This document shows, one piece after another, positions 6,900-60,398 of a stretch of DNA of 64,000 nt. Source of the stretch: Zygnema cylindricum. Its lineage: Eukaryota > Streptophyta > Zygnematophyceae > Zygnematales > Zygnemataceae. Under the pieces are notes generated by a model, which was given only the letters and a program-made list of their open reading frames with translations, was not told where the DNA came from and ran no database searches. Location of the stretch: positions 62,001 through 126,000 of the forward strand of contig JBBHKE010000968.1 in assembly GCA_037447655.1 (NCBI GenBank). Reading direction: 5' to 3'. The translations under genes were made by a program, and so were the position numbers. The first letter of the stretch is position 1; every line of letters starts with the position of its first letter.

Positions 6900-7206
6900 C
6901 TAACATCAAGATGATGAAAGAATAAGTAAAGTACATTGTTGATGGAAGCCAGCGAAAGGCAAGATGGCAACAAACATGGGTCTTGTCATGTCAATGTTTT
7001 TCGCTCTGTAAATATTGATGAGAATTGATACAACCGAGAGTTTTCTGAAAAACCTTTGCAGACAATCACCGTTTATGAAAAACTCAAATCTACTTATAGG
7101 TACTACCCTAAATATTATTTGACAAATGTAAACCAACAATGCGTCACATAGTGTAACTGCGACATGCATTCTAATTTCACCATAAAATATAAAACACGGT
7201 CTTACA

Positions 7207-8505
7207 AGCTGTGGAGTTTGCAGTCTTCAAAAAAAGACAAAGGAATGTCACCAGTGAAATTAATCTTGCTCAAGTCAAGCTCTCGTAAATATGTCGGTTT
7301 GTTTCCCAAGCTAACTGGAATTTTTCCATTGAATAAATTATGAGAAAGATCAATTGTCTCCATCATAACCCATCTAGTCTTAGTGGGAAGAAGTCCACTG
7401 AAATGGTTGCCACTGAGGTTTAGCTCTGCTAAGTTTGACAATCCAATAACTTGGAAATATTTCCAGACAAATTATTGTTTGCCACATTGAAAGTGGTGAC
7501 ATTTGTATCATTTAGCTTGGCAGTTCGCCCGAGAATTCGTTATTATCTAAATATAGATGTTTTAAGCCTGTCAGCCCTAAGAAGTCAAAAATGGTGCCAC
7601 TGAGATAATTGTGCCCAAGAGGAAGAGTAGCGAGATAAACACAATTTCCGCCACTAAAACTTGATAAAATTTCCCCAGTTAACATGTTTTGGCTCACATT
7701 TAGGTATTTGATAGTCGAATTCGAGTCATCAGCGCACAGAATTTTAAGAAACTCAGTAACATTGCCGCTTGCAAAATTATTTGAAAGATCAGAAAAGGAT
7801 TTTTTTTTCATTTGCAAGACTAGGAGCTATATCTCCTTTAAAGTTATTCGAGTTAAGTAAAACAGTGCTATTTAGGGTGCTGAAGATGAAAGTGTTTGGG
7901 AGGCTTCCAGATAAGGAATTATGACTGAGGTCAATATAGGAAAGGTTTGGAAGGGATACTAGAGCCACGGGAACCAAGCCAATGAGATTCATCGACGATA
8001 AAGCAACAGTTTGAAGAGTGGCAGGCCAGCTGGCACTTGCAGATGGAAGATTAGAAGGAGACATTTTGATGTTTTCACTGAGACTAAGATACTCCAGATT
8101 CGATAACTTCCCAATCCATTCTGGAAAGTGTCCGGTAAAATCATTATCATCCATGCTTAATTTAGTTAAGCCTGTCAAGTTGTCAAATGGAATTCTACCC
8201 ATTTGTCCGCTAAACTGATAAGAGTCGAGAGAGAGAGATACTCAAGTTTGGTCAGTTTCCCCACCACATCCACAGTTCCCTTCAGGCTATTGTTCCTTAT
8301 GTCCATATATGATATGTCAAGTTTCTTAGGTTTCCCCAACTGCCTGGAATGTGTCCCGTTAGGATGCTGGCATGTACATTTAACAATTCCAAATCCGTCA
8401 AGTTTCCGACGGACGGCGGCAGACTGCCGGCTAGCAAAGAATCGCCGAGATTAATTTCAGTCACTCTGTACTTGCCACGACACGTGTCACGTGGTCGGTG
8501 ATTAC
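7207..8505 (-). pseudogene. LRR receptor main repeat block, frameshifted
   Basis: It starts with the second cap half and first repeat (TCRGKYRVTEINL, then GSLPPSVGNLTDL) and continues with plant-specific LRRs of the form LxxLxLSxNxLxGxIPxxL. Examples are LSNLAELNLSGNHFSGLLP, LSYIDLSHNSLSGSLP and IKYLNVSQNMLTGEI. Roughly a dozen or more repeats can be traced, but the frame changes near 8295, 8225, 7800, 7515 and 7440, each time within a recognisable repeat. The block ends at a GTAAGA donor (exon edge 7207). Repeat number and spacing are otherwise typical of plant receptor ectodomains. Confidence 0.8.
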
Positions 8506-12375: not shown

Positions 12376-13965
12376 TACTAAAGTTCCATAATGTGGACAA
12401 ATAGGCAGACGTTGTTGCATTTTTTGGAGGTTTTGAAAAAGTTTTTTGCGCGGAGTACAAAAAAAAACCCAATTTACGTTTCTAGCATGTCCGTATTTTT
12501 TTCCGTGCACTTTTTTACATCAAAGGGCCACCAACGGACGCAATTTTGTAAAAGAGAAGTTTGTGAAGGCGCTTCTCTCTTTCTCTCTCCCACTACCGCG
12601 TCTAACTCACACTCTAGTAATGAAAATCGAAAAAAAATAGTATAAGCTGAATGATCCTTAAAAAATATTCATTTTTACTATCTTTGGTTGTATTTAAATG
12701 GCAAGTAGATTGAGAAAGAACGGGAAAAAAAATCAGGAAACTATGGCAAAATTGTTTGGAATTAGTGATGTTGATGGTATCATAATTGAGCATGAAGTCA
12801 AAATGTCAAAAACTTAGACACCTACAATATGACAAGAAACTAGACGTCTACAACCGTTGCTATTTTGTAAACGTCATCAATTTTTCTGAGTTTTGTAGTC
12901 CTCTACAACCATAAAAAATGACACCAACATCGACATCCTTCATAAATTAAAGTAACGACTTCATTGCGTTACAACGGATCGCTTCGAAAGTAGTATTAAA
13001 AATCTTTCATAAAAAATAAAGTAGCAAGACTATTTTCTTTTTATATGGGAAAGTTCCCTTACACAATTTCCTTAAACAAAAGCAACGATTTCGTTCTTAA
13101 GCATCGAGACATTTGAAAACCATGTAAGAAGCATCTTCGCTACAATACAAAGCAAGTTTACTAAGTTAGAAGTACACAAGGATACACTCTTACTCAAGGT
13201 GATGTATAGGCTGAAAAGTGCAATACATTATAAAAGCCCTAAAAAATAGTTGTATAGCGTATTTCGTTGAGTACGTTTTAGGTGTTGGAACACTTTGTCG
13301 TGTGTATCATTTGACACAAATTTTGAGGCGTTAGTAGAATTTTTTTTTTTTCAATGCGATAGAGATGGTTTTGACAGATACATGGAATCCGTACGTCAAA
13401 TGATAACCGCGACCGCGGATTTCAAACGTCCGAGCATCAAGCAATGGTTCTTTGTGATCACCCGGTTCCTTAAGCATAATGGTTATACTGGAAGATTTGA
13501 CTTCATTGAGGGTGTCTTTGTTGCGTGTACTTGAGGATTGATGGGTGGGTTGTATAGTACTATTCTTTCGCTGCATGGGAATTGTTATTAGTGTGAATAC
13601 CACTAATTCGACGCCCCCAAATTTTGACCCTTAAACCTAAAATGGAATTAATAATTATAGTTTTTCCTTTACTATAGTACAAGTACGAGATAATTAGTGT
13701 TAATAACACTATTTTATGAATAAAATAAATAGTGTGGTGAAAGTAATGTATCAATCCGTACCACAAATGTAAGTATTGACGTAACAAATTACATTAAAAA
13801 GTTTGAAATAAATGCATCGACACTTAAAATTGCACTAGAAATTGAATGACAAAATTAAAACGTGAAAACCTGTTCGCACATGATCCGATGTCGCCAGTGG
13901 CCGTGTGAACACAATACACTTTTTACGGCGTGAGAAATGGAACATTTTACGATAATAGTAAAACA
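12376..13965. other. Non-coding AT-rich stretch
   Basis: No gene recognised. The 13590-13760 segment repeats words of the CACCG-type MITEs (ATTAGTGT, AATAAATAGTGTGGTG), so a degraded MITE copy is likely there. Confidence 0.4.
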
Positions 13966-15477
13966 ATGGAATTGTTCATGGCAGTGACTATTTTGGTTGG
14001 GCACAGTCACTTACGTCACCTTGTCAAAGGTTGTATGTTTTAAGTACAAGTTCGTACAAGTAAAGTACCGTTGAGTTTAAATTTGACGGTCAATCACTTG
14101 AACAACTTTAACTTTCAAAATATCGTAACAACCGATTAAAATTTTGTCGCGCTTGCCAACGTCAACTGTCATAATAAAATCAACAATTCACACCGTCGAC
14201 AAAGGTTTACATTAACAAAACTGCTGCAACCAGATGTAAATAAAAGTGTTGCGCATAGTAACTTTCTCACTTTACGTGAGTTCCACTATGAGAGCACATG
14301 TTGGCTTTTAACTTAGCCACAAAATTGAAATTTAATCGCGAATCGTAAATAATGTAACTTGATTTGGCTACGCATGACGACTCACATTTTTTTCATTTAG
14401 TTTGATACATTTAAGAGGATTCGTTTTATAATAGTGTACAAAGTATATTTTTTTCTTTCGATTTAATTTACTACACAAGACTTTTAGTACTTTAGTTTTG
14501 AGAGGTTTCATTTCACGTGGTTTTTCAATTTGCGCCTAAGTTCAATGTAACGATTCGGGATTAAATTTCATTTTTGAGGCTAAATTAAAAGCCAACATGT
14601 GCTCTCACAATGGAGCTCACGTAAATGTGGTTGCCAAAGTTACCGTAAACCTTCGCCGGCCGTGTGAATTGTTGATTTTATTATGACGATCAACGTTTGG
14701 AACCGCGACAAAAATTTAACCGGTTGTTACGATATTTTGAAAGTCAAAGCTGTTTAAGTGATTGACCATCAAATTTTAACTCAAGGGAACACGGTGAATC
14801 GTTATTATTGTTTAGAAAGTATTAGTGTTAATAAGGAATTAGTGTTAATAAAGAATTAGTGTTAATAAGGAATTATTGTTAATAATGATAATTTGGGTTT
14901 GCAACTTTTTTTTTTAAATGGTAATTGTAATTGATCCATAACGCTAATTTAGGTACACCGGATCCGTCGTAATTATATATACAGTAAAATAGGTAAAAGT
15001 ATAAAATTTTACAATCCGTACAACCTCACGTCCTTTTACGATAATTAATCCATACTTCTAATTTGGGTTTGCGAACCAGTTTGTTGCAAACTTGGCTCCA
15101 CACGTTTATTCTAAGCGCACTTCTGTATGCAACCGACATAAGTTAACTACCTTTTTTTTACGATTTTCAGCAACAAAGTACATTGTTGTACGGAAAAACA
15201 CCTTCTGTACACTACACTAAGCAAAAAATGCGTACGGCATAATCGTTAACGCTAATTTACAAGAACCATAATAAGTGTCAAGGAAAAATTAGGTTTATTA
15301 ATTCCATTTCAACTTTCGAGGTCAAAATTTTGGGGTGCTGATATAGAGTACATAAGGCTAATAACGATTCACGGTGTACTTTACTTTTACCAATGTGTAC
15401 TTAAACCGTACAATCTTTGACAAGGTGACGTAAGTGACTCTGCGCAACTAAAATAGTCACTGCCATGATCAATTCCC
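13966..15477. mobile_element. Foldback (long inverted repeat) element split by a MITE
   Basis: Left arm ~13966-14365 pairs with right arm ~14535-14789 plus 15377-15477. Examples are CATGGCAGTGACTATTTT against AAAATAGTCACTGCCATG, GTTGGCTTTTAA against TTAAAAGCCAAC, and ATTGTTGATTTTATTATGAC against its inverse. The spacer is ~170 bp. The right arm is broken exactly at a TA by the 587-bp MITE, and the arm sequence reads on continuously when that MITE is ignored. No ORF of size was found; the outer ends are approximate. Confidence 0.8.
14790..15376. mobile_element. MITE, 587 bp, CACCG-type TIR, nested in foldback arm
   Basis: The right end reads CGATTCACGGTG followed by TA, and the left end reads CACGGTGAATCGTTATTA, its inverse with one mismatch. 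The left flank is AA instead of TA, a single change. It belongs to the family at 10187, 52116, 53058 and 55984. It contains a short tandem TTAGTGTTAATAAGGAA run near 14820-14880. Confidence 0.8.
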
Positions 15478-16782
15478 TAAAACAGTAAAACAAACATGGG
15501 AACAAAACCTACACATCCCATCGTTCCTATCGTAGTGGTATTACACATTGGGGGGAGGGCACATTTGGCGGGCGGCGGAGACTTTCGAGGAGGATTTTGC
15601 CCAGGCGATGTCAATCCCTCTTAGTTATTGATAAGGACAAAAATTTCGCGCGAAGCGCGGAGATTTTTTTTTTTCTAGGAGTTCTCCTCGCTGATTAGGT
15701 CAGATGTAAAAAAAAAACAAAAAAAATACAAAGTGTTCATACTTACAGCGTTCTCATATAGAGAATTCACCACAAATAGCGTCACACGCGTCGCATGAGA
15801 ACATGTAAATCGCGTTCGCGACTCAAAATATCTACATAATATAATAAACGTTCACACTTTAAACACTATACCATTCAATCCGTCGAACAACTGAGTCGCG
15901 CGTCAAGTGAGAACACTTGACCTTTGCCATAAAAAACAAAAATAAAAATTAGCCGCGCGTCACGTGAGAACACATTACGTATGACATTATAAACAAAAAA
16001 AAAATACAGTCATATTGTCGTCTTTTGGCGCCGCAGGCGAATTTTTTTTTACTACGCTACGTGAAATGAGGATAATACGCGGATAGTGTAAAAATATCCT
16101 ACGGTCATTATTGAAGTAGTATTTTGAAAGGAGGAGAAGATATTTTGAAAGCGGAGAAGGTATATATATTCAAATTTTAGAAAGTACAAGACAAATCCGC
16201 GTGTACTACTTATTTACTCCAAAATGTGACGCTATTTATCATACTCCGTACGGTCGAAAGTGAAATTTTGTACTTTTCCATGTAGATTACCTCTCCTCGC
16301 GGATGTCTGTACGTAGTAAAATTGAAATTCGTACTCGCCAATGTAGATTACCTCTCCGCGCGAATTTCGTACTTTCAAATTTGGGACCAATTTTTTTCAG
16401 TATGTATCGCAAATGATTACGTTTCAAATTGTATTGTTTTGAAACGTAAGTAAATATGAGCGTATGTTAATCTATTTATTACGTACGCTTTAACCATAGG
16501 TTTTGATTTACGTTTTAACGTATCTACTGTTAAAACCAACAGCTAAATCAACTTAACCCTAAATCCTACAGCCTAACCCTAAATCTTACAACTTAGGGTT
16601 AAATCCTACAATTTTTAATTTTCGTTTTTGTTATTTTTTTATTTATTTTATTTCATTTTTTTTATTCATTTACTTGTTTTCTTTCAACACCTTTATTTTA
16701 AATTAAACTTTTTAAAGGTTTTTCTTATTATTTTCTTTTTATTATAATTTTTTTTTTCTTCTTCATAAATTATTTCTTTTCA
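15478..16782. other. Region upstream of the Crypton gene with short tandem duplications
   Basis: No gene seen. A GCGTCNCNTGAGAACA word recurs at about 15792, 15900 and 15958. A ~60-bp duplication at ~16255-16375 repeats CCATGTAGATTACCTCTC / CCAATGTAGATTACCTCTC. Telomere-like AACCCTAAATC words occur at 16553-16600. The 100 bp before the ATG at 16783 are extremely T-rich. The 5' end of the Crypton element must lie here or further left; I cannot place it. Confidence 0.4.
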
Positions 16783-17402
16783 ATGTTTTCTTGGCGTAAG
16801 GGAATTTTCCAAATTTTACCTAGTATTGTCTCAGGGCTCACATTTGGAAACTGTCAAAAAATTGTTCATTTAGAAGATGACGATAGCAATGTAGGAATAA
16901 AAAACCCCCCACAATATAGTGAAACAGATAGAGCACGGATCATCAGAGATACATTAAAACAACGTAACCCAAACACAGAAAAAACTTATCAAGTTGGTTT
17001 AAATCAGTATGAAAATTTTTGGAGTGCACAAGGGCACCCAAATGTAGCTATTACACCTGATGGGGTTATTGGACTATTAGAGAAAAACAAAAATAAAAGC
17101 TATACCACACTCATACAATGGGTGAAAGGACTCCAAGACTCGTATAAAACGCAATTAGCCATAAAAGGAGGGGGGGGTGAAAATCTTAGAGAGAACAATA
17201 TCATCCAAAAACTGTTACAAGAGTCCAAAAAAAATACATCAAATTTAAAAAAAAATAACCATGAAGATCGTCAAGAAGGCATACGAGAAGCGTACTCTCT
17301 CGAAGATTACAAAGGGTTTTCAACATTTTGGTTGGAGTTGGCCGAAGGAAAGCACAAAGAAAAAAAATTGGGGATGGAACCATACACTAGCATTCAAGTG
17401 AG
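16783..17402 (+). CDS. Crypton recombinase exon 1 (N-terminal core-binding-like region)
   Basis: Open for 206 codons from ATG 16783, ending at a GTATGT donor in phase 2. Residues ~55-110 (RNPNTEKTYQVGLNQYENFW onwards, then ALITPDG-like and WVKGLQDS) resemble the helical SAM-like core-binding domain that precedes tyrosine-recombinase catalytic domains. Residues after ~130 are Asn/Lys-rich. The ATG is the only one upstream in frame, but a preceding exon cannot be excluded. Confidence 0.65.
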
Positions 17403-17873
17403 GTATGTATCGATAAAAATACTAAATTTTGTATTTCATTGTTTCGATTAATGTTGCTTTTTACTTAACACTTTATTTTATAGGGTGCATTCATTTTGAG
17501 TTTTTTTTTTTATCAAATTTTCTTATTTTAGGGTTTAGATTTTAATTTTTGACTTTATATTACATTTTTTTTAACATGTTTTTTCGGGATTCAAAAAGTA
17601 TTTAGAAGTTCACTCCAAAGTCTATTTAAAACAGAGACAAAATTTATGTGCAATTTTTGTTTTTGGGAGAAAGTATACATTCTTTTAAAATAAAGCTCCA
17701 ATTATTTTTGTAACATTGTCATTTTTTTTGTTTGTGTTGTTTTGTTTATTTTTTTGGTGATGCAATTTTTTTTTTTTGGGAGAAAGTATACATTATTTTA
17801 AAATAAAGCTCCAATTATGTTTGTAATATTGTCATTTTTTGTCTCTTTGGTGTTTTGTTTTTTTTTTTTGTAG

Positions 17874-18027
17874 GAGTCAATTTATCATGAACCATGCGTG
17901 TCTCAGTCGAGGCGATGATTCCAGAAATGCTCAGTTAGCGGATGTTTTTTCGTATGATCTTGTTTATCTTGGGCCGGACAAGGATTATGTTTTGGCGATG
18001 GTTACAAGAAATGGGAAAACTAATGTG
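17874..18027 (+). CDS. Crypton recombinase exon 2 (first catalytic arginine)
   Basis: TTTGTAG acceptor, GTAAGT donor, 154 bp, phase 2 to phase 0. It encodes NHACLSRGDDSRNAQLADVF, which fits the box carrying the first catalytic Arg in Crypton-type recombinases, followed by YDLVYLGPDKDYVLAMVTRN, the expected beta strands. Confidence 0.75.
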
Positions 18028-18148
18028 GTAAGTAATCTATAAAAGTGGAGCTTTAATGAAATGTGTATTTTTATAATGTTTTGTGCATAACCCAAAAACA
18101 AATTTTACTAATTCTTTTCAGTTTTTTTATGGTATTTTTTTACCGCAG

Positions 18149-18490
18149 AACGGTCGTGCGGAATTTATTGGATGCATGCGTCACTTAGACTTTCTTATTT
18201 GTCCGGTAGGTGCTGTGGCCCAACAGTTTTTTTGGAGGTAGGAATTAGCTACAAATAAAAATATAATTCTCAATTTTTCGACGAAAGAAACTTGGTATGG
18301 TGAGCCTTTCACGGAAGGGAGAGTTTTAGCGAAAGACCAAGAAAGAAAAGAAACACCGTTCATGCAACCTCTTTGCTACAATACACAGTTTCAGTATATA
18401 AAAAAAACATTCCAAACCAAAAAATGTTTCCTTGTCTCATAAAACCCATGCGGGACGTGGTGAAGGAGCAACGATGTTGGCGACAGGAGG
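18149..18490 (+). pseudogene. Crypton recombinase exon 3 (RH..CPVGA and HAGR motifs; stop and frameshift)
   Basis: ACCGCAG acceptor in phase 0. It encodes IGCMRHLDFLICPVGAVAQ, typical of the family's middle segment, and after 18430 the frame carrying KTHAGRGEGA, the HxxR catalytic motif. A TAG at 18237 sits where a Trp codon (TGG) is expected. One extra base near 18430 shifts the frame before HAGR. The exon ends at GTGCGT, and its length minus one base gives exactly the phase needed by exon 4. Confidence 0.75.
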
Positions 18491-18610
18491 GTGCGTTTTT
18501 GTAAACTTAACATTTGATTTTTATTCATGCATTTATTTGAAATAAAGAAGTTTTGTTGTTTATGTTCTCGTTTTTGAAATTTTAATTTTTTTTTATGGTA
18601 AATATTTCAG

Positions 18611-18830
18611 TGCTGATCGAAAATCCATCAAAGTGATGGGACGTTGGACATCCGACCACTTCTCATACTCATATGTCACGGATTTGCCAACGGACATTCT
18701 TCTTCAAGCTTTTGGCCACGAAAACAACACCAGAAAATATTTTCTACCTTGTTCCAGTGTGAAACCCCTTGCTACTCTTTGTGCTATGTTTTGGCCCTGG
18801 GTTGAAACGGCAAATGTTGAGCTGCCAACA
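18611..18830 (+). CDS. Crypton recombinase exon 4 (catalytic tyrosine)
   Basis: ATTTCAG acceptor, GTATGT donor, 220 bp. The residues ADRKSIKVMGRWTSDHFSYS and VTDLPTDILLQAFGH match the recombinase end: the GRW helix, then the tyrosine region, then LP.D.L..A.G. After that comes a YFLPCSSV..PPW-type segment (AMFWPWVE) that follows the catalytic domain in Cryptons. The nucleophile is one of the Tyr residues in FSYSYV. Confidence 0.8.
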
Positions 18831-19258
18831 GTATGTCTATAAAAACTCTCACCATTTCTATCATTACTTTTTGTGTTAAGTAATCTTTGGTGTTTTATGT
18901 TCGTCACATTTTGTTTATATTACTCTGTTTTTTTTCTTGTATCACTTATATCGATTTTTTTTATTGTTTTTTGTTTATTTTCTTTTTTTTGTCTTTTCAA
19001 TTGTTTTTCCATTTTTTCAATTGTTTTTCTGTTTGATGTTGTTTTTTTTATGTTTTTCCGGTAATTTTGTATTCCTTTAATTGGTTTTGTTTTTCTCTTT
19101 CCATCTCAATATTTTTTTTTTTTCTCTCGTCACATTTTTTGTTTGTTTTATATTTAATAATTTGTTTTTATATATATTTAATGCATTGTTTTTTTTTTTT
19201 TGTTTTAATCTTAATGAATTATTTTCATATTGAACCATACAAATGTTTTTTTGTGCAG

Positions 19259-20167
19259 AAAAATGCTCGAGCTTCTAAATTTGAAAGAGATTTAAGCGCA
19301 CAAAATTTCCTTCACACCATGTTATGGCTCAAAAGTGTGTTTTTACAGGACAATGTTTTTTTCCAGGATTTGTTTCCTGATCTTCCTATCTTCAAGCACA
19401 AATTGTTCCATTCTCGTTTGTGGTCGTCGTTCAAAGACAAAGTCAAAAAAACTTGTTATGAAGCATCAGACATGTGGGCTTCAATTGCTGATGCCGAAAC
19501 AAATGTGTCGATTACAATCTCACAAGTGAGAAAATCAGTTGATTCGCTATTCATGTGAAGTGAAACTTAGGGAAGAAAGATTGATTACATGGGAGAGGAA
19601 ATGTATTATGTAAAAGAGACACTTTCAAGTTTGAATAAGAAAATGTGTAGTTTAGATGATAAGTTAACGCATATTATGCAGGCGATGGATGGTCAAGGAG
19701 AGGCGTTTCATGTAAGACAACCTTCTCAAAATCAAAATAGACCATCTGAAGGTGAATTAGCGATGGGAATCGGGACTCGTGAACGCGATCTTCCTCGAAG
19801 TGAAGACGAGCAACATGAAACTCATGTGGAAACGGCACGAGCAACTGAACCCTTTCCACCTCCTATTCCTTCACAAGAAAAATCTTATCAAGTACCTTTG
19901 ATGACTCAAATCGAAGCGCGACTTCACACGGTTAAAGATGTGTGGAAAGCATACCATGATGGTATAGGTGGGCTCCCTTCCATCGCCGATTTGGAATCAA
20001 GTGGAACTAGTTGGAGGAAAGGAGAATATCGAAAGTTTTATAATTGAAATATCATCTTGGAGGAAGTTAAAAGAATAGCAAAGGTGAATGATGTAACATT
20101 AAGTACGGCATTGAGCAGGTTGCAAGATCGCCAATTCGTGAACAAATGGAGTCTGCGCGACATATAA
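19259..20167 (+). pseudogene. Crypton exon 5: linker, coiled coil and GCR1_C-like DNA-binding domain
   Basis: TTGTGCAG acceptor in phase 0; one frame to TAA 20165-20167, interrupted by TGA 19556, TAG 19568 and TGA 20045. After a helical part (FERDLSAQNFLHTMLWLKSV) comes a probable coiled coil (~19500-19690). The last ~85 codons read TVKDVWKAYHDGIGGLPSIA, WRKGEYRKFY, then IILEEVKRIA: the order of Trp, Gly-Pro-Ser-I and WR..E..FY..R..I of the GCR1_C family (yeast Gcr1 C-terminal DNA-binding domain), which fungal-type Cryptons carry. The 20045 TGA falls where the family usually has Arg, so CGA to TGA is likely. Confidence 0.75.
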
Positions 20168-20435
20168 AGGAGATTAGCGACTGAAAACAAAAAAATCTAA
20201 ATTGTAGTTTGTGGGACTGTTTTGGCACTTATTATAAACGTGTTTTATTTTGCTTTAAAAACTTTCTATAAACATATATAATAATATATAATGTGTATTT
20301 AAACTGATTTTTTTATAAATTCAAACTCGCGTAATGAGTTTGCTTATATTTTTGTTATTTTCGGCCCATGATATGTTTATGTTTTATTTGTTTTTTCCTT
20401 TATTTTAACTTGTTTTTTTATTTGATAAAAAAAGA

Positions 20436-20572
20436 CGTTTAACCTTTGATGTTGTCGAAGTTAATGTTTGTTGTAACCTGTTTCACAAATATTTTCATAA
20501 AAAAAAACTTGTAACCTTTGATGTTGTCGAAGTTAATGTTTGTTGTAACCTGTTTCATAAATATTTTCATTT
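20436..20572. repeat. Tandem duplication, ~67-70 bp x2
   Basis: Two adjacent near-identical copies of AACCTTTGATGTTGTCGAAG..TTGTTGTAACCTGTTTCA(C/T)AAATATTTTCAT lie just after the Crypton gene. Confidence 0.85.
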
Positions 20573-20599
20573 TAATTAGTATTTACAAAATAAATTATT

Positions 20600-21645
20600 C
20601 AATATTTGCTACCTACTGTGTTTTCATCATTAAGTTGGATATCGTGTTCACACACACTAATTCTATATGTATATGATTTTAATTTCATTATTTTTATAAA
20701 CAATTACGTTAGGCTGAAAAGTTTTAGTTAAAGTTTTTTGGTTTATATAACAAATTATAACTTAACACAAACCAAATATAGTTTATCTATCATGGTCGAT
20801 TAAAAATGTAGTCGTTGTGTTTGTCAAACTTAATAGGGTTGAAATATTGTAAAATACAAAAAATCATAACAACGATTGTGGGAGTCAAATATCTACAATA
20901 TTTCGCTTTGTGATAATGTAAGAGTAAATAAAAGCAACGACTAAAATTTATCATCATTTATTTGGTGTTTTTTTAATAAATGCCTTTTGTCGAATACTTA
21001 ATCGGATATTTTATTATTTTTATGAACAAACTATAACTTAACACAAACCAAATATAGTTTATCTATCATTGTCAATTAAAAATGTAGTCGTCGTGTTTTT
21101 CAAACTTAATAGGCTTGAAACATTGTAAGATAAGAAAATCATAACAACGATCGTGGGAGTCAAATATCTACAATATTTCGTTTTGTGATACAATAAGAGG
21201 AAATAAAAACAACGGCTAATTATTATCATCGTTTTTTTTTTTTTTTTTTTAAATGCCTTTTGTCAAATACTTAATCGGATATTTCAATTTTTTTATGAAT
21301 GATTACGTTAGATTAATAAGGTTTATTTAATGCTTTTGGATTATGTATAACAAACTATAACTTAACAGAAACCAAATATAGTTTCTCTATTATGGTCTAT
21401 TCAAATTGTAGTCGTTGTATTTATCAAACTTAATAGGCGGGTTTGAAACATTGTAAGATAGAAAAACGATAACATCGATCGTGGGAGTAAAATTTGTTCT
21501 ATTATTCGTTTTGTGATACCATAAAACAAAATAAAAGCAACGGCTAACTATTCTCATCCTTTCTCATCCTTTGTTGAATTTTTTTATTTTATAAATGCCT
21601 TTTGTCCAAGATTTAATCGGATAGTCAATGTATTTATTTTTATAT
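20600..21645. repeat. Tandem ~300-bp repeat array downstream of the Crypton gene
   Basis: Three main units start near 20750, 21030 and 21350. Each reads AA(A/T)TATAACTTAACA.AAACCAAATATAGTTT, TGTAGTCGT.GT, CAAACTTAATAGG, ATAACA.CGAT(T/C)GTGGGAGT and AATGCCTTTTGTC, ending in an ATCGGATA word. The unit spacing is ~280-320 bp. An extra partial unit without the core lies at ~20634-20740. Copies are diverged, so the array is old. It may be the 3' non-coding part of the element. Confidence 0.8.
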
Positions 21646-22055
21646 TTGTGTTATATTATGTATAAATGTTGTATTACATTACGATTAATGCATTCAATTT
21701 TAACAATATATTTAATTAAACAGCATTAAAAATGTATTAACGATGGGGACCAAAAAAATAATTAAGCCTTATGGCCGCTAAGGACCAACCGACCAGCAGC
21801 AAATTGAGTGATTAACTACTCTATTTTGAGTAGCAGCGTATCGAGGAGATCGACGATATAGGCGTAATGGTAACGTAGCGGCAATGGGCAGCACGTCTGT
21901 TTTTTTTGTTTTTTATTTTTTTGGGACGCCTTCCTTCGTGCGTTGGTTTTTAACTTTTTATTGTTTTTTGTTTTACTTGACACTTTGACATAGCCCGCCG
22001 CGAAAGCACCTATTTATCCGTTTGCGTCCTCCCGCGAGACGCCGTATGCCGCCAG
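21646..22055. other. Non-coding, no gene recognised
   Basis: AT-rich to ~21760, then more mixed composition towards the small ORF at 22056-22280. GGTATACCTGGCC occurs twice (22063 and 22084 regions). Confidence 0.35.
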
Positions 22056-22280
22056 CTAATAAAGGTATACCTGGCCTGGCGACGGTATACCTGGCCCGGT
22101 GACGTCCTCGCGGGCCAATTCGAAATATGTCGAACCGGCATCCGCGGGAGTCTCCGCGAGGTTATCCTGCGGCCGGCGTTTCTCTCCTCGACCCTCCACG
22201 AGTCTCCTCGTTTCGGCCTGTACCGGCGGTTTGCTCTCCGCGCGGAGCACTATACCGACAAAAAACATGAATGCAAACAT
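22056..22280 (-). CDS. Small ORF, candidate secreted-peptide precursor (74 aa)
   Basis: From the ATG at 22280 the frame encodes a hydrophobic N-terminus (MFAFMFFVGIVLRA, like a signal peptide with a cut near AES). A charged variable middle with a basic run (GEKRRPQ) follows, and a short C-terminal end rich in Gly/Pro/Ser (VTGPGIPSPGQVY). Small precursors of plant peptide hormones have this layout, and SPG near the end recalls CEP- or PIP-type peptides, but the consensus of neither is met. The frame is open for 67 more codons upstream. The GC content is clearly above its surroundings. No homology is claimed. Confidence 0.35.
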   Translation of the reverse strand: MFAFMFFVGIVLRAESKPPVQAETRRLVEGRGEKRRPQDNLAETPADAGSTYFELAREDVTGPGIPSPGQVYLY

Positions 22281-53558: not shown

Positions 53559-53599
53559 TAGTGTCAAAGTCACTACTTTGGGTTCTTAAAATTTTGATT

Positions 53600-54082
53600 T
53601 TTTTTTTCAAATAGGATACATGATTTTAATTTTTCCTTGACGTTAATTAAAGTAGAGTACAAAATAAAGTAAAGCCCGAAAGTACAATATAAAATAAATA
53701 GTGTGGTGTACGGTCGATGTTAGACTGTACATAAATGTACCTTTTCAAGTGAAAATTTACAAAAAATGAATTAAATCAGACGCACACGCATAGGAACGTG
53801 CGCTCGAAAAAAAGGGATTAGTCCGACACGTAGATTAGTATGGCATTGACGGATATTTTATTTTCGCGACGGCGCATGATTTCTCATATTTTGTACGGAT
53901 ACATATATTAATGTATATAATCGTACGACGAATATTCCATTTTTGTTGTTCCCAAATTAGCATAAACGACGAAATTGGAATGCACCTTTTTTTTGAAAAA
54001 AAACAAATTCTTAATTAGCATCAATTACTGTAATTTTCCTTCAACAATATTTAAACTTTGACACTAATAATGATTCGCGGTG
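53600..54082. mobile_element. Partial copy of the 10187-type MITE
   Basis: The right end CTAATAATGATTCGCGGTG is followed by TA. The interior follows 10310-10640 (GTGGTGTACG.TC..TGT(T/C)AGAC.GTACA, GACGCA, GTACGA and GTGTATAATCGTACGAC-like words). The left TIR was not found, so this copy is truncated or very diverged. Confidence 0.6.
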
Positions 54083-54477
54083 TAGCTATTAGCTTAATAG
54101 TTTAAAACTGTTAAAACATATTTTTCCGTACGCGTCAGATTATGGATTTGACGGTTGCGATTGAATTTGAAGATTCCCACCTTCCCATTGGCGAACTCCA
54201 TGTAAAAATCGGACAAGTGTGTACGGAGAAAATATGTTTTATGTGGCAAAAAATTAGTAACACTAATAACGGTAGGCGGTGTCCTGTGGTGATTAGCAGC
54301 ACAAAAGTTTCTATTAGAATGGGAATTAATTTTGTACCCTTTTTTTTTAGGGATTTTTGTAACTGCTAAATGCGAATCTCCATAAATAATTAAATACTAT
54401 ATGCGAATCTCTGTAACTGCTGCAAATCAGCCAGAATGTCTGTCGTTTAGTGCTTTTTTAGGGTTTGTTAGGAATTT
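54083..54477. other. Non-coding; degraded MITE end near 54265-54285
   Basis: CACTAATAACGGTAGGCGGTG (54262-54282) is the right end of a CACCG-type MITE without a recognisable partner. A 75-codon plus ORF at 54142-54366 runs into it and is probably chance. Confidence 0.4.
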
Positions 54478-54552
54478 TAGGGTTTTTCAGGTTTTTTTAG
54501 GGTTTTTAAGGTTTTTTAGGTTTTTTAGGGTTTTTTTAGGGTTTTTTAGGGA
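54478..54552. repeat. TTTAGGG-like low-complexity tract
   Basis: A run of degenerate TTTTTAGGG units (spacing 9-12 bp), with an inverse CCCTAAAA run at 55045-55076. This resembles degenerate interstitial plant-type telomere repeat (TTTAGGG) but is not perfect. Confidence 0.6.
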
Positions 54553-56182: not shown

Positions 56183-58100
56183 TATCTCCCACTTTTTATT
56201 CCATATTTGTGGGAATAATACTTTTCGTGTTAGTAAACGTTATCAAACGTCGTTCTATTATTTACCTTTAAAATTTAAAGGTGAATATCAATACTGATTT
56301 ACACATTCCGTACCTTACACTATTTTGTTCCATGTTGATGTTGTGAAGATGACCTTAAATTAATTTTACCTGACTGAACATCAAGAATCATTTGGATTTA
56401 TCAATTTTATTTAAGGTGATAGGCTCAAATGTAGGATTTCGTAATTAGTGTCATAGGGGGATTGCACTGTAGAAGATTTACCCTTGTTTTTGAAGGAAAA
56501 TTGTTGAAATTGTACAAGTTTTGGGTCTTTTGCATAGGTTTTCTGCCCCAAATTGTACAATTTACCCTCAGCATTAGGATAAATTTCTTCAATTGCAATT
56601 ACCACGCGATTGCCGCTAATAATTGCGATTAAGGTGAACACTGCCCATCACTATTAAACTTAATTTGTATTATTATTATTATTATTATTATTATCATTAT
56701 AAAACTAATTCGGTTAGAACTTTTTCTTGCCGAAATTCATAAAAATAGTGTCATCAACGCTATTTAACGTGTAAAATTATACAGTACCATGCGTCTCCTA
56801 ATAAATTAGTGTTGTATATATATTCCGATGTCACATTTACGCTCAAAAATTCTTTAATCTTAGGGTAGAGTTCCATTAGGCGTCCCAGTAATTGTACGAA
56901 AAATCTTACTGAAGGGCGTGCCTTCCATTAGGTCGCGTCTGTAATCCTGCGTGGCTCATTCTGGTTGGTAACACGTAGGCTAATATTCGATCCTTAAAAT
57001 CTTGAAAGAATCTTCGAATACAATGTCAGAACGCAATATCTGTACGAGCGGAGGTAATATCTGTACCAGCGGAGGTAGTTAATGACTCGTACAGAGGGCA
57101 TTAAATGTACTACCCAAAATTTCAAAACGCAACGACAAAAAGGCGGCGGCAAACTTTGATGGTGGGAGCGTGACGGGGTAATTTCGGCGGATTCGCAGCC
57201 ACCCTGGCTGAAGGCACGTGGCCCTTACGACGTGTACGCACATACGCGCGCGCTCATCGTGGATTCATTTAACCTTTTCCACGTGGCCTATTTTTACACG
57301 TTCTGTATTCGAGAACTGTCCTCACTCTGCACTGTCAAAACAAACTGTAGGGTTAGTGACGTGGCTTCACGGATAAAAAGTGCAATTGAATCCGACGGGT
57401 TCTAGTTTACGCCTACAACCCTGGACAATTTTCTGTAATGTTGTTTTCGTTGAAAAAAAATTAATTCTGTACGAACCTGTACGAAAAGGTACGACCTTCA
57501 GTAAAAAACCCCACTTTTTCGCTAATGGAAGTCCACCCTTAATGCTAATAACGTTGGGCAGTGCAGTTTCTCATGTACAAAACTGTACACATTGTAAGTT
57601 TACGAGGTAATTGTGCGTACGGTTTCGAGAAACTGTACGATTTACGCTCTAACATTTGGGGACTTTTCTTCATTTGTCGTTTAGTATTTTGTACGGCACT
57701 GTTTGTTCACCTACTCGCATTAACTGCGTCTGTCCCATCAGTATTTTGTCGTTTTGTGAACAAATGACTGGCAGATTCCCTGCTACAGAATTATTTTATC
57801 GTTTTGTCAGCTGATTCAAAAATTGCATGGTACACGTGTGTGTATTTTTTGTCGTATTTGCCGCCTTTTGTTCTGTCCTTTTGTGACTGCTTTTTGCCCA
57901 CTTGCAGTCCAGCTGTACACGTGGCAGGCGGTGAAAGAAGTCTGCGCGACAGTCGCCCCGGAATCTGAGGACGATGTCGGACCGTCCGATCCGTACGGAT
58001 TGGATATTGCCGTACTATTCGTACGATTGTAGGATTTCCTAATTGTCCTTTTGTGCGGCGACGCGAAGGTAACGTCAGCTCGTGACTCCTACCGCAACGA
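56183..58100. other. Non-coding stretch with a (TTA)n microsatellite
   Basis: About 56668-56695 is a TAT/TTA triplet run. Near 57541-57560 a CTAATAACGTTGGGCAGTGCA resembles a MITE end. 57220-57300 holds CACGTGGCC twice. GC content rises from ~57.1 kb towards the ORF. No gene was recognised; promoter elements for the 58-kb ORF could lie here. Confidence 0.35.
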
Positions 58101-58166
58101 ATTTTGTCGTTTAGCATTTTTTTTTATGACGAGATTGGGACCGTCTTGGCGTCGAGTTTGTTGCGC

Positions 58167-60398
58167 ATGCTGCTTTTGTACGGACGAAAGGAATCCGTAC
58201 AGGGATATACCGTACAGAGGCAGAAACGACAAAAAACAAAAAAACGGAAAAAAACAGAAGGAATCAAAGCGAGAAGAACAAGCCAGAAAGAAAATAAGAA
58301 GGGAAGGGAAAACGCAGGGAGTAGAAATCTTATCTTTTCTCCTCTCTCTCTCTCTCTCCCTCTTCGCTTCACCAAACTTTTCTCCCTCCGTTCCCTTCCC
58401 CTCCCTCCACCCCCCAGGCCACCTACTTGTTTTGGGTCTCTCTCTCCCCCTCTCCCCCTCTCCCCCTCTCCCCCTCTCCCCCTCTCCCCCCCCTCTCCCC
58501 CCTCTCCTTTCCCTCTCCTTCCCTCTCTCTTCCCCCTACTTCCACTCCCCTCTTCCCACCCTCCCTTTCCCTCCTCTCTCATGGCCTTCGCCCCCTTTTT
58601 TACCAATCCCTCCCTTCCCCTCCCTCTCCCCCTCCCCCCCTCCAAACGGCTCCGTCCCGACCCCCCCTCTCTCCCCTCCGCCGACCACTCGTTTTCCCAC
58701 CCATCAGAAGCTGCCACGTCAGCATATTATCATGCCACGTCAGCAGATTATCCTGCCACGTCAGCATTCCAACCTGCCACGTCAGCCTTCCATCCTGCCA
58801 CGTCAGCATCTCACCGCGCCTACTCGCAATCCTTCGCTTCCCGAGCAGATTCGCGGGATTTTTTTTCCGGAAATTCCGGCGGCTTATCCGGACGGGCTCA
58901 TCTGGAGGCGGCCGTATCCGATCTAAACGACAAACTCCACTGTGACGTCACGCGACCGCAGCCGCGCCACCATTGGCCGACGGATTGGGATTTTCCGCAG
59001 AAGACCCCCCCCGCCAGTCAGTATACGAATTCGCACGTGCGAAACGTTTTTTGGGACCCGGTCGCGTCCTTCCGCGCGAAAAACCGAAACGAGACGGAAT
59101 TTTCGCAAGTGGGGTCCGTACAGTCCGTACAGTCCGTACAGTTACGGGAATCCGAAAACCGTCGGGAATCCGTACACCGCCGGAGGGAATCCGTGCAGGA
59201 CTTGTTTCGCGCGGTGAAAGGTGACGTCAGCAGAGGAGGCGACGCGGCACGTGCGACTTGGCACGTGTGTCCGACGTGTCACCACAGTACGGACACCGTA
59301 CAGGGACACGTGGCGCACCAGATTCTGGAGCATCAGCACCGTTTTGAGGAAAATTTGAAATCCCCAAAAAACGGAAATCCCCAATTTCTCCAAAATTTTC
59401 AAAACCTGCCCGAAACTTTGGGCAGGACCCAAAATTTGAAAAAATCGGCGCAGAAAACCGCCGGATTTCGGCGCTCCTCCAAGCGGTCGGCTTCTGGAGC
59501 CTTCCGCCCTGCCACGTCAGCAAATGCCACGTCAGCAAATGTTACTGCAGCGAATGCCACGTCAGCAGGCAACAGCGAATCAGATACCAGCAATTTCTCC
59601 TCCCCCCAGTCGGCGGACAAATCCGAGGAATCCGGGCCCATCTTGCCACGTGGCAGGCTGTCTGTCTCTCTCCCCAGTAGATGCCACGTGGCACTCTCTC
59701 CTCCCTCCCCCTGCTCCCCTCTCACCCCCCCGGGATGTAAAACCGCCACGTGGCACCACCTGATGGGGAAGACAGGTTCGGAATCGGAGGGAGGGGTAGG
59801 TTCGGGATTGGTCCCTCCTCCGGATGAAGACAAACATATTTTGTCTTCTTCTGCTTCTTCTTTGTCGCTTCTGGATTTCCAGAGGGCTTTGGACAATATG
59901 CGAAAACAGACCTCCGCCCCCTTTTGGCCACCTGGCCATACTGCCACGTCAGCATTCGTGACGTCACCAGGTGCCACGTCAGCAGGAGAGAGGCCGGAAT
60001 TGGTGCTAGCGGCGGAAGAAGCCACGTCAGCAGTAAGAAATGCCACGTCAGCAGTGGGAAACGCCACATCAGCACACGCTCCATTGGCACATGCCACGTC
60101 AGCAATGAGGGACGTGACGTCAGCAGGGGAAGGCGCCAGGGGAAGAGATTTTGGGGCGGAAATTTTGGGAAAAGAAAATGGAGGTTTTTTTGGGAAGGAA
60201 AAGTTTTTGGGGTTCGGGCAGGCGACGGAAGGGAATTTCGGGCAGCGGAAAAATTTCTTTGAGGGATCTTTCGGGCAGGTGAAAAATAGTTTCGTTTTTG
60301 AACATGGGAAGGCTTTGGAGGCGGGGAAGAGGAGGGAGGGGGGGGAGAGGAGGGAGGAGAGGGAGGAGCTGAAACTCGAACTCACTTTAAGTTTGTGA
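58167..60398 (+). CDS. Long ORF with one C2H2-zinc-finger-like motif and Ala-Thr-Ser-Ala repeats
   Basis: The frame is open from upstream of 58167 to 60398 (743 codons from the ATG at 58167). The ATG at 58581 (ATGGCC, after a CT-rich leader-like tract; 605 codons) is an attractive alternative start. Codons 58340-58700 give Ser/Pro/Leu low complexity. A CPTC..H....H motif (C-x2-C-x12-H-x4-H, ~59265-59330) fits a C2H2 zinc finger but lacks its usual aromatic and leucine. Repeated ATSA tetrapeptides come from the TGCCACGTCAGCA repeats, and FGQ/FGK repeats lie near the end. The final codons overlap GTGAGT, so the frame may run on into a next exon. GC content is far above the flanks. The opposite strand also has a long frame (59399-60385), so composition may explain part of the openness. 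Function unknown. Confidence 0.45.
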   Translation: MLLLYGRKESVQGYTVQRQKRQKTKKRKKTEGIKARRTSQKENKKGRENAGSRNLIFSPLSLSLPLRFTKLFSLRSLPLPPPPRPPTCFGSLSPPLPLSPSPPLPLSPPSPPSPFPLLPSLFPLLPLPSSHPPFPSSLMAFAPFFTNPSLPLPLPLPPSKRLRPDPPSLPSADHSFSHPSEAATSAYYHATSADYPATSAFQPATSAFHPATSASHRAYSQSFASRADSRDFFSGNSGGLSGRAHLEAAVSDLNDKLHCDVTRPQPRHHWPTDWDFPQKTPPASQYTNSHVRNVFWDPVASFRAKNRNETEFSQVGSVQSVQSVQLRESENRRESVHRRRESVQDLFRAVKGDVSRGGDAARATWHVCPTCHHSTDTVQGHVAHQILEHQHRFEENLKSPKNGNPQFLQNFQNLPETLGRTQNLKKSAQKTAGFRRSSKRSASGAFRPATSANATSANVTAANATSAGNSESDTSNFSSPQSADKSEESGPILPRGRLSVSLPSRCHVALSPPSPCSPLTPPGCKTATWHHLMGKTGSESEGGVGSGLVPPPDEDKHILSSSASSLSLLDFQRALDNMRKQTSAPFWPPGHTATSAFVTSPGATSAGERPELVLAAEEATSAVRNATSAVGNATSAHAPLAHATSAMRDVTSAGEGARGRDFGAEILGKENGGFFGKEKFLGFGQATEGNFGQRKNFFEGSFGQVKNSFVFEHGKALEAGKRREGGERREEREELKLELTLSL
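58330..58690. repeat. CT-rich low-complexity tract
   Basis: Almost pure pyrimidine on the plus strand, including a CTCTCCCC run (about 58441-58500). Such tracts occur in plant 5' leaders. Its purine counterpart lies at 9245-9600. Confidence 0.85.
58712..58808 (+). repeat. TGCCACGTCAGCA motif x5 at exact 21-bp spacing
   Basis: Copies start at 58712, 58733, 58754, 58775 and 58796 (the fourth ends in C). The 8-bp linkers differ, so the 13-mer is more conserved than the 21-bp unit. The core CCACGT / ACGTCA joins a G-box half to a C-box half, the type of site bound by plant bZIP factors. Confidence 0.9.
59510..59567 (+). repeat. TGCCACGTCAGCA motif x3 plus one decayed, 15-bp spacing
   Basis: Copies start at 59510, 59525 and 59555, with a decayed copy (TGTTACTGCAGCG) at 59540, all 15 bp apart. 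Confidence 0.9.
59644..59765. promoter_or_regulatory. Perfect G-box palindromes TGCCACGTGGCA
   Basis: TGCCACGTGGCA occurs at 59644-59655 and 59682-59693, and CGCCACGTGGCA at 59754-59765. These are the symmetric version of the half-site in the 13-mer. Whether they act as protein-binding sites or are only sequence within the ORF is not known. Confidence 0.5.
59942..60122 (+). repeat. Third cluster of TGCCACGTCAGCA motifs with TGACGTCA sites
   Basis: Copies start at 59942, 59972, 60020 (first base A), 60041 and 60092, with a decayed copy at 60062. Spacings include 30, 21 and 21 bp. TGACGTCA palindromes stand at 59959-59966 and 60115-60122. Confidence 0.9.

Follow-up and report, generated by a model that had tools for sequence, protein, structure and literature searches.

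A multi-copy CryptonF-type tyrosine-recombinase transposon, with empty insertion sites, in a probable streptophyte genome

The window analysed here is a stretch of 64,000 nucleotides of contig JBBHKE010000968.1 (Zygnema cylindricum assembly GCA_037447655.1), and it carries a five-exon tyrosine-recombinase gene enclosed in a larger element with sharply defined ends. A first-pass annotation, made from the letters alone, had described a Crypton-type transposon at 16783-20167; a gene does lie there, and the element itself is larger (15532-22250), adding about 1.25 kb before the gene and 2.1 kb after it. Very probably this is a decayed member of a multi-copy family of CryptonF-type DNA transposons whose host is most likely a streptophyte. 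The features of the locus are listed in Table 1.

All four introns of the gene have a GT donor and an AG acceptor, are T-rich and 120-471 nt long, and agree in phase if the frameshift in exon 3 is taken into account. The splice sites and phases of the earlier five-exon reading stand. The broken state of the frame had been overlooked: it is disrupted by TAG 18239, TGA 19556, TAG 19568 and TGA 20045, together with a frameshift between 18242 and 18439, and with these four nonsense codons and one frameshift the window copy, as sequenced, is unable to make the full protein. A reading of 18238-18287 as one more short intron was dropped, since its phases are incompatible and, apart from the TAG, the frame continues through it. 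An altered genetic code was likewise rejected, because TAG and TGA both occur, a frameshift is present as well, and two other copies (L026 and L028, described below) are open under the standard code. Intron 1 also holds a 113-bp tandem duplication (17649-17868), with a similar array in L028.

When the exons were joined, with X at the stops and the frameshift, the resulting protein matched the Pfam families NDC10_II (E=2.1e-28) and GCR1_C (E=2.5e-10), in agreement with the first-pass reading of a Crypton-type recombinase with a GCR1_C-like tail. Because the joining of exons could itself build a match, seven unjoined single frames were also submitted to Pfam. Three consecutive ones matched in profile order, namely 18546-18839 (NDC10_II positions 185-263, E=0.0012, its 18.4 bits being below the 26.3-bit cut-off), 19037-19555 (NDC10_II 268-313, E=1.2e-8) and 19571-20044 (GCR1_C, E=1e-7); the exon 1 frame gave a weak match to Phage_int_SAM_1 that was below the cut-off (E=0.018), and the other three of the seven matched no Pfam family. 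The ordered R, HxxR and GRW..Y boxes noted at first pass were recovered as CLSRG, THAGR, GRW and YVTDLP. In the joined window protein they start at residues 216, 346, 371 and 382, and in each of the two intact ones (L026 and L028) at 216, 357, 382 and 393. Additionally, a profile built from the window protein and four relatives matched yeast Ndc10 (6gsa, E=2.3e-7; 10eh, E=1.3e-5).

Table 1. Features of the Crypton locus and of related sites within the window
Feature	Position	Strand	Remarks
Left 6-bp core CCTATC	15526..15531	+	probably the target's own DNA, by analogy with L029
Crypton element body, 6719 bp	15532..22250	+	begins GTAGTGGTATTACACATTGGGG; homology with copies on other contigs ends sharply on both sides
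Exon 1	16783..17402	+	N-terminal part, weak SAM-like core-binding match
Exon 2	17874..18027	+	CLSRG, first catalytic Arg
Exon 3	18149..18490	+	GRAEFIGCMRH..CPVGA and THAGR box; contains TAG 18239 and one frameshift
Exon 4	18611..18830	+	GRW and YVTDLP, Tyr being the putative nucleophile
Exon 5	19259..20167	+	end of NDC10_II, linker, GCR1_C; own stop TAA 20165
Tandem repeats of about 275 bp	20742..21637	+	non-coding 3' part of the element
Right 6-bp core TATACC	22251..22256	+	element-borne
Uninserted paralogue of the L029 target	13968..14338	+	AGTACC|G at the junction
Uninserted paralogue of the L028 target	53573..54084	+
Nested inverted-repeat pair	13968-14068 with 15476-15376
Nested inverted-repeat pair	14071-14216 with 14784-14639
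Nested inverted-repeat pair	14268-14346 with 14629-14550

The first-pass annotation had suggested counting the copies in the host assembly, and this was done by a profile search of all contigs (352.8 Mb, 2689 contigs). Because such a search scores only the best candidates, the counts for these domains are lower bounds: the assembly holds at least 60 NDC10_II and at least 50 GCR1_C matches, which, grouped within 4 kb, fall into at least 71 loci on at least 68 contigs (at least 46 with NDC10_II, at least 50 with GCR1_C and at least 25 with both). Neither domain was found in any of 14 control genomes, whose identities are not stated. Some GCR1_C matches (contigs C1544, C531, C673, C1744, C2036 and others) form a separate group, spaced at 240-246 nt and covering about profile positions 8-80, and this longer-spaced group is possibly a different Crypton family.

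Twenty copies were examined as 10-kb stretches and, since they were picked from the best NDC10_II matches, this sample is biased towards well-kept copies. The similarity between copies on different contigs extends for up to 6.8-7.0 kb and then breaks off abruptly, the closest to that of the window among the 20 being L039 (95.4% over 6.1 kb), and splice sites are largely kept among them. An uninterrupted five-exon gene is present in two of the 20, L026 (764 aa) and L028 (748 aa), whose products match NDC10_II with E=1.2e-38 and 3.1e-41 and also contain GCR1_C. From their sequence, these intact copies are predicted to encode an N-terminal arm, a tyrosine recombinase core (R, H-x-x-R, W, Y) and a C-terminal GCR1_C DNA-binding domain. 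In L027 exon 5 is open, 2757 bases are N, and exons 1-4 were unplaced; stops occur in the projected frame of the other 17 copies, where one frameshift yields many stops and some projections are misaligned (L024, L025, L035 and L040 especially).

Between the L026 and L028 genes dN is 0.065 and dS 0.342 (NG86), and this low dN relative to dS (dN/dS about 0.19) shows that purifying selection acted on the protein as the subfamilies diverged. Such selection could also be expected of a domesticated host gene of the Ndc10 or Gcr1 kind that is no mobile element, and the similar domains of yeast Ndc10 and Gcr1, seen by profile match and described in the accessible part of PMC3212892, lend this idea some appeal. 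It is scarcely credible here, given the dozens of loci, the stops in 17 of the 20 copies, the common ends with unrelated flanks, the catalytic residues that have been kept, and the empty sites described below, which contradict it.

Element ends were sought in 21 sequences (the window and the 20 copies), with the left end located in 12 and the right end in 18. The element body starts with GTAGTGGTATTAGACATTGGG and finishes with ...AGCAG (AGCAC in the window copy), followed by TATACC, and the ten copies with both ends located measure 6.7-8.0 kb. Of the 18 located right ends, 17 have the 6-mer TATACC and one has AATACC, with a G directly after the 6-mer in 15. The left 6-mers are of nine kinds among 12, and their mean match to TATACC is 3.67 of 6 letters, a value attained in 0 of 10,000 draws of random 6-mers from the window; without the doubtful L038, the mean is 4.0 (again 0 of 10,000). 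Where both ends are located, the left and right 6-mers have 4-6 letters in common in eight copies, three in the window copy and none in L038, and they are unequal in nine of the ten. The interpretation of these 6-mers as a target-site duplication was dropped, as the right one is nearly constant, the left one variable and the two mostly unequal.

Within the element, 72-bp tandem repeats lie just after the gene in the 3' non-coding part (20421-20570), and telomere-like repeats of the AACCCTAAATCCTACAGCCT type were seen upstream of the gene, at about 16550-16610 in the window and at 7196-7340 in L028.

For each of the ten two-ended copies the flanks were joined and searched for among the fetched copies and in the window, a hit being accepted if it ran past the junction by more than 20 bases in either direction. 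Such hits, which are evidence of past insertion, were obtained for L028 and L029, and both paralogues lie inside the window. The filled site of L029 reads ...CAAATATAGTACC[element]GCTGAGTATAAATGTGACGG, and its empty counterpart (from window position 13968) reads ...CAAGTAAAGTACCGTTGAGTTTAAATTTGACGG, without a gap and with a single AGTACC exactly at the junction; GTACC also stands at this position in L023 and L024, there with T next. The empty site implies that at L029 the left core predates the element, that the right TATACC arrived with it, and that nothing was duplicated or lost. The paralogue of the L028 target (83%) also crosses the junction without a gap. Beside the window copy, a fold-back-like arrangement of nested inverted repeats (13614-15476) ends about 50 bp before the Crypton, and its left part belongs to the repeat family that was hit by the L029 insertion.

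The L029 site fits site-specific recombination at a 6-bp core, with no target-site duplication. A DDE transposase leaves equal flanking repeats that differ from copy to copy; one constant and one mostly target-like side is what would be expected of a tyrosine recombinase joining the core of a circle to a similar genomic core. Most likely, the recombinase would excise the element as a circle, with strand exchange inside the 6-bp TATACC core, and the circle junction would then recombine at places in the genome similar to (N)ATACC|G or AGTACC|G. In this model the circle, the points of cleavage and the catalytic activity are inferred.

The element could instead be of another class, either a retroelement like DIRS or a cut-and-paste (DDE) transposon carrying a recombinase-like protein, and DIRS elements are among those with tyrosine recombinases (PMC3537659, in its accessible portion). 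This is most improbable. When nine more frames were scanned with Pfam, five from the window element and four from L026, none matched a family, and no reverse transcriptase was found in these nine or among the remaining frames, which were read by eye only. Terminal inverted repeats were absent among the 25 longest of 62 inverted-repeat pairs, and in three copies the first and last 40 bases were not inverted repeats of each other. Additionally, the left and right 6-mers are unequal in nine of the ten two-ended copies, unlike a target-site duplication.

The host is likely a streptophyte. The assembly contains one match above the cut-off to the auxin-response-factor (ARF) domain ARF_AD, in an exon that reads FRGSVISIGDADPIHWPNSLWRSLK, and this domain is not known outside streptophytes. 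The window itself carries copia retroelements, including a nest of copia-type fragments on the minus strand (RVT_2 and gag, 28000-49200, about 70-90% alike), and an array of leucine-rich repeats (LRRs) on the minus strand (about 7200-8450), which we take to be of plant type on the strength of its L..L..N.LSG.IP pattern. The frame of this array shifts within a few hundred bases (7205-8450), as in a broken or finely split gene. Elsewhere in the window, a G+C-rich region (58086-60398; 56% at 58001-60000) contains a 770-codon open frame rich in ATSA repeats and with one C2H2-like CPTCHHSTDTVQGHVAHQILEHQH, and this frame had no Pfam match; a degenerate array of TTTTTTAGGG-like units at 54454-54551 recalls plant telomere repeats.

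The annotation had itself named two outcomes on which its reading would fall: the absence of profile matches, which is contradicted by the NDC10_II and GCR1_C matches, and contamination of fungal or oomycete origin. CryptonF elements have been described in fungi and oomycetes (available text of PMC3212892), and the single ARF exon lies on a contig that may or may not have repeats in common with the Crypton contigs, so that contamination of a plant assembly, by this contig or by all of the copies, deserves consideration. We regard it as improbable: the loci are spread over at least 68 contigs, several of them longer than 400 kb; repeats of the window recur next to other copies and on both sides of the window copy; the plant-like LRR array shares a contig with the window copy; an ARF_AD match above the cut-off is present; and the introns are T-rich and 120-471 nt long. 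Thus far, the contig does not have a fungal or oomycete look, and the first-pass interpretation is supported.

A protein search in which 7984 candidates were scored (threshold E<=0.001) yielded at least four relatives: P0001 (from a metagenome, with both domains), P0002, P0003 (Circinella minor) and P0004. Over the core, each of these shares 31-34% identity with the window protein. In P0003 a retrotransposon gag domain is annotated ahead of the recombinase, as in a gene-model fusion or a composite element. Searches of viral and genome contig collections returned no locus with a relative, although one stretch was indicated as encoding a relative of P0001; they used strict single-protein patterns and hence carry little weight.

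These identities bear on where the family came from. The first-pass annotation had offered two alternatives, an undescribed plant lineage or a transfer from a fungus or oomycete, and either may apply. In the second case a CryptonF would have passed horizontally into this plant lineage and then multiplied, an idea that concerns origin only and is compatible with a multi-copy CryptonF in a streptophyte; Kojima & Jurka infer a fungus-oomycete transfer (PMC3212892, accessible part), and the known distribution is patchy. We consider such a transfer possible but rather unlikely, as all four relatives, Circinella minor included, are about equally distant, with no close donor among them in what is a very thin sampling, and as the subfamilies within the genome are 0.34 synonymous changes per site apart, which argues against one copy having entered very recently. 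The further proposal that green plants have their own long-established CryptonF lineage, recently mobile here and with a circle inserting at loosely matching 6-bp sites, one core being the target's and the other the element's, stands in even balance in our judgement.

Several observations weigh against the interpretation of the family as a mobile CryptonF in a streptophyte. Other Crypton families may account for some of the at least 71 loci. Four of the 12 left cores fit TATACC poorly (GGAACT, GGCGGT, GTTGTC and CCTATC, the last being that of the window), and the left flank of L038 is another repeat that terminates at the junction. The search pattern for the right end includes TATACC (with at most four mismatches), so that divergent right cores may escape it; of 11 right breakpoints called by alignment only, nine are at TATACC and the other two (L026 and L033) inside the element. 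The empty paralogue of the L028 target has AGTAGA where GATACC would correspond, and this site therefore backs the position and not the core sequence, while for eight of the ten copies no empty site was found among the fetched copies and the window. The intact proteins are only 26-29% identical to the relatives, over longer stretches, and an AlphaFold model of P0002 with three others had a pLDDT of 40 and was left unused. Even with these points, a multi-copy CryptonF-type transposon in a streptophyte remains by far the most probable reading.

The accessible parts of the literature give an uneven account of Cryptons in plants. The first-pass annotation knew of no well-described plant example; Elliott & Gregory 2015 list Crypton among the superfamilies present in all compiled groups, land plants included (PMC4438587), so that the annotation's statement calls for softening, and the available text of that paper describes no such element. 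In the available part of an Arabidopsis review, Cryptons are given as not described in Arabidopsis (PMC7385966). The integration of CryptonF was inferred from terminal repeats in the 2011 paper, according to which CryptonF was also the source of Ndc10, a centromere protein of yeast, and of regulators such as Gcr1 (PMC3212892, in part); given a plant lineage, one may ask whether plants too have domesticated such elements. The present data extend a well-defined transposon class to an apparent streptophyte, in whose genome complete copies with defined ends occur together with empty sites. They also predict a circle junction and a target core, which makes CryptonF integration directly testable. 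Should green plants indeed have their own lineage, Cryptons would span Viridiplantae besides fungi, oomycetes, diatoms and animals.

Among known systems, Cre is alike in its H-x2-R-x22-W-x8-Y stretch, which aligns without a gap with the window profile in a match that is non-significant by itself (E=1.7); the aligned H, R, W and Y are the catalytic residues of Cre. Yeast Ndc10/Cbf2 and Gcr1 resemble the element by profile, in NDC10_II and GCR1_C. Of the groups listed in Repbase in 2015 (CryptonA, F, I, S and V; PMC4455052, in part), CryptonS of oomycetes and a diatom shares the Crypton recombinase and 5-6 bp terminal direct repeats and, as far as the available text of PMC3212892 goes, lacks GCR1_C and mostly has TATGG termini, whereas the element described here has GCR1_C and TATACC. 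CryptonF, known from fungi and oomycetes (Kojima & Jurka 2011, PMC3212892, same limits), is alike in combining GCR1_C with a tyrosine recombinase (R..HxxR..Y) within a single protein, in its 6-bp terminal direct repeats (here with variation) and in having, as far as found, neither terminal inverted repeats nor target-site duplication nor reverse transcriptase. The family differs in its apparent streptophyte host, its five exons, its length of 6.7-8.0 kb, a left repeat that often matches only in part and that at L029 belongs to the target, and the lack of a C48 peptidase in the frames tested. Altogether, every CryptonF feature that could be tested was found, and the element is therefore classed as CryptonF type in a new host group.

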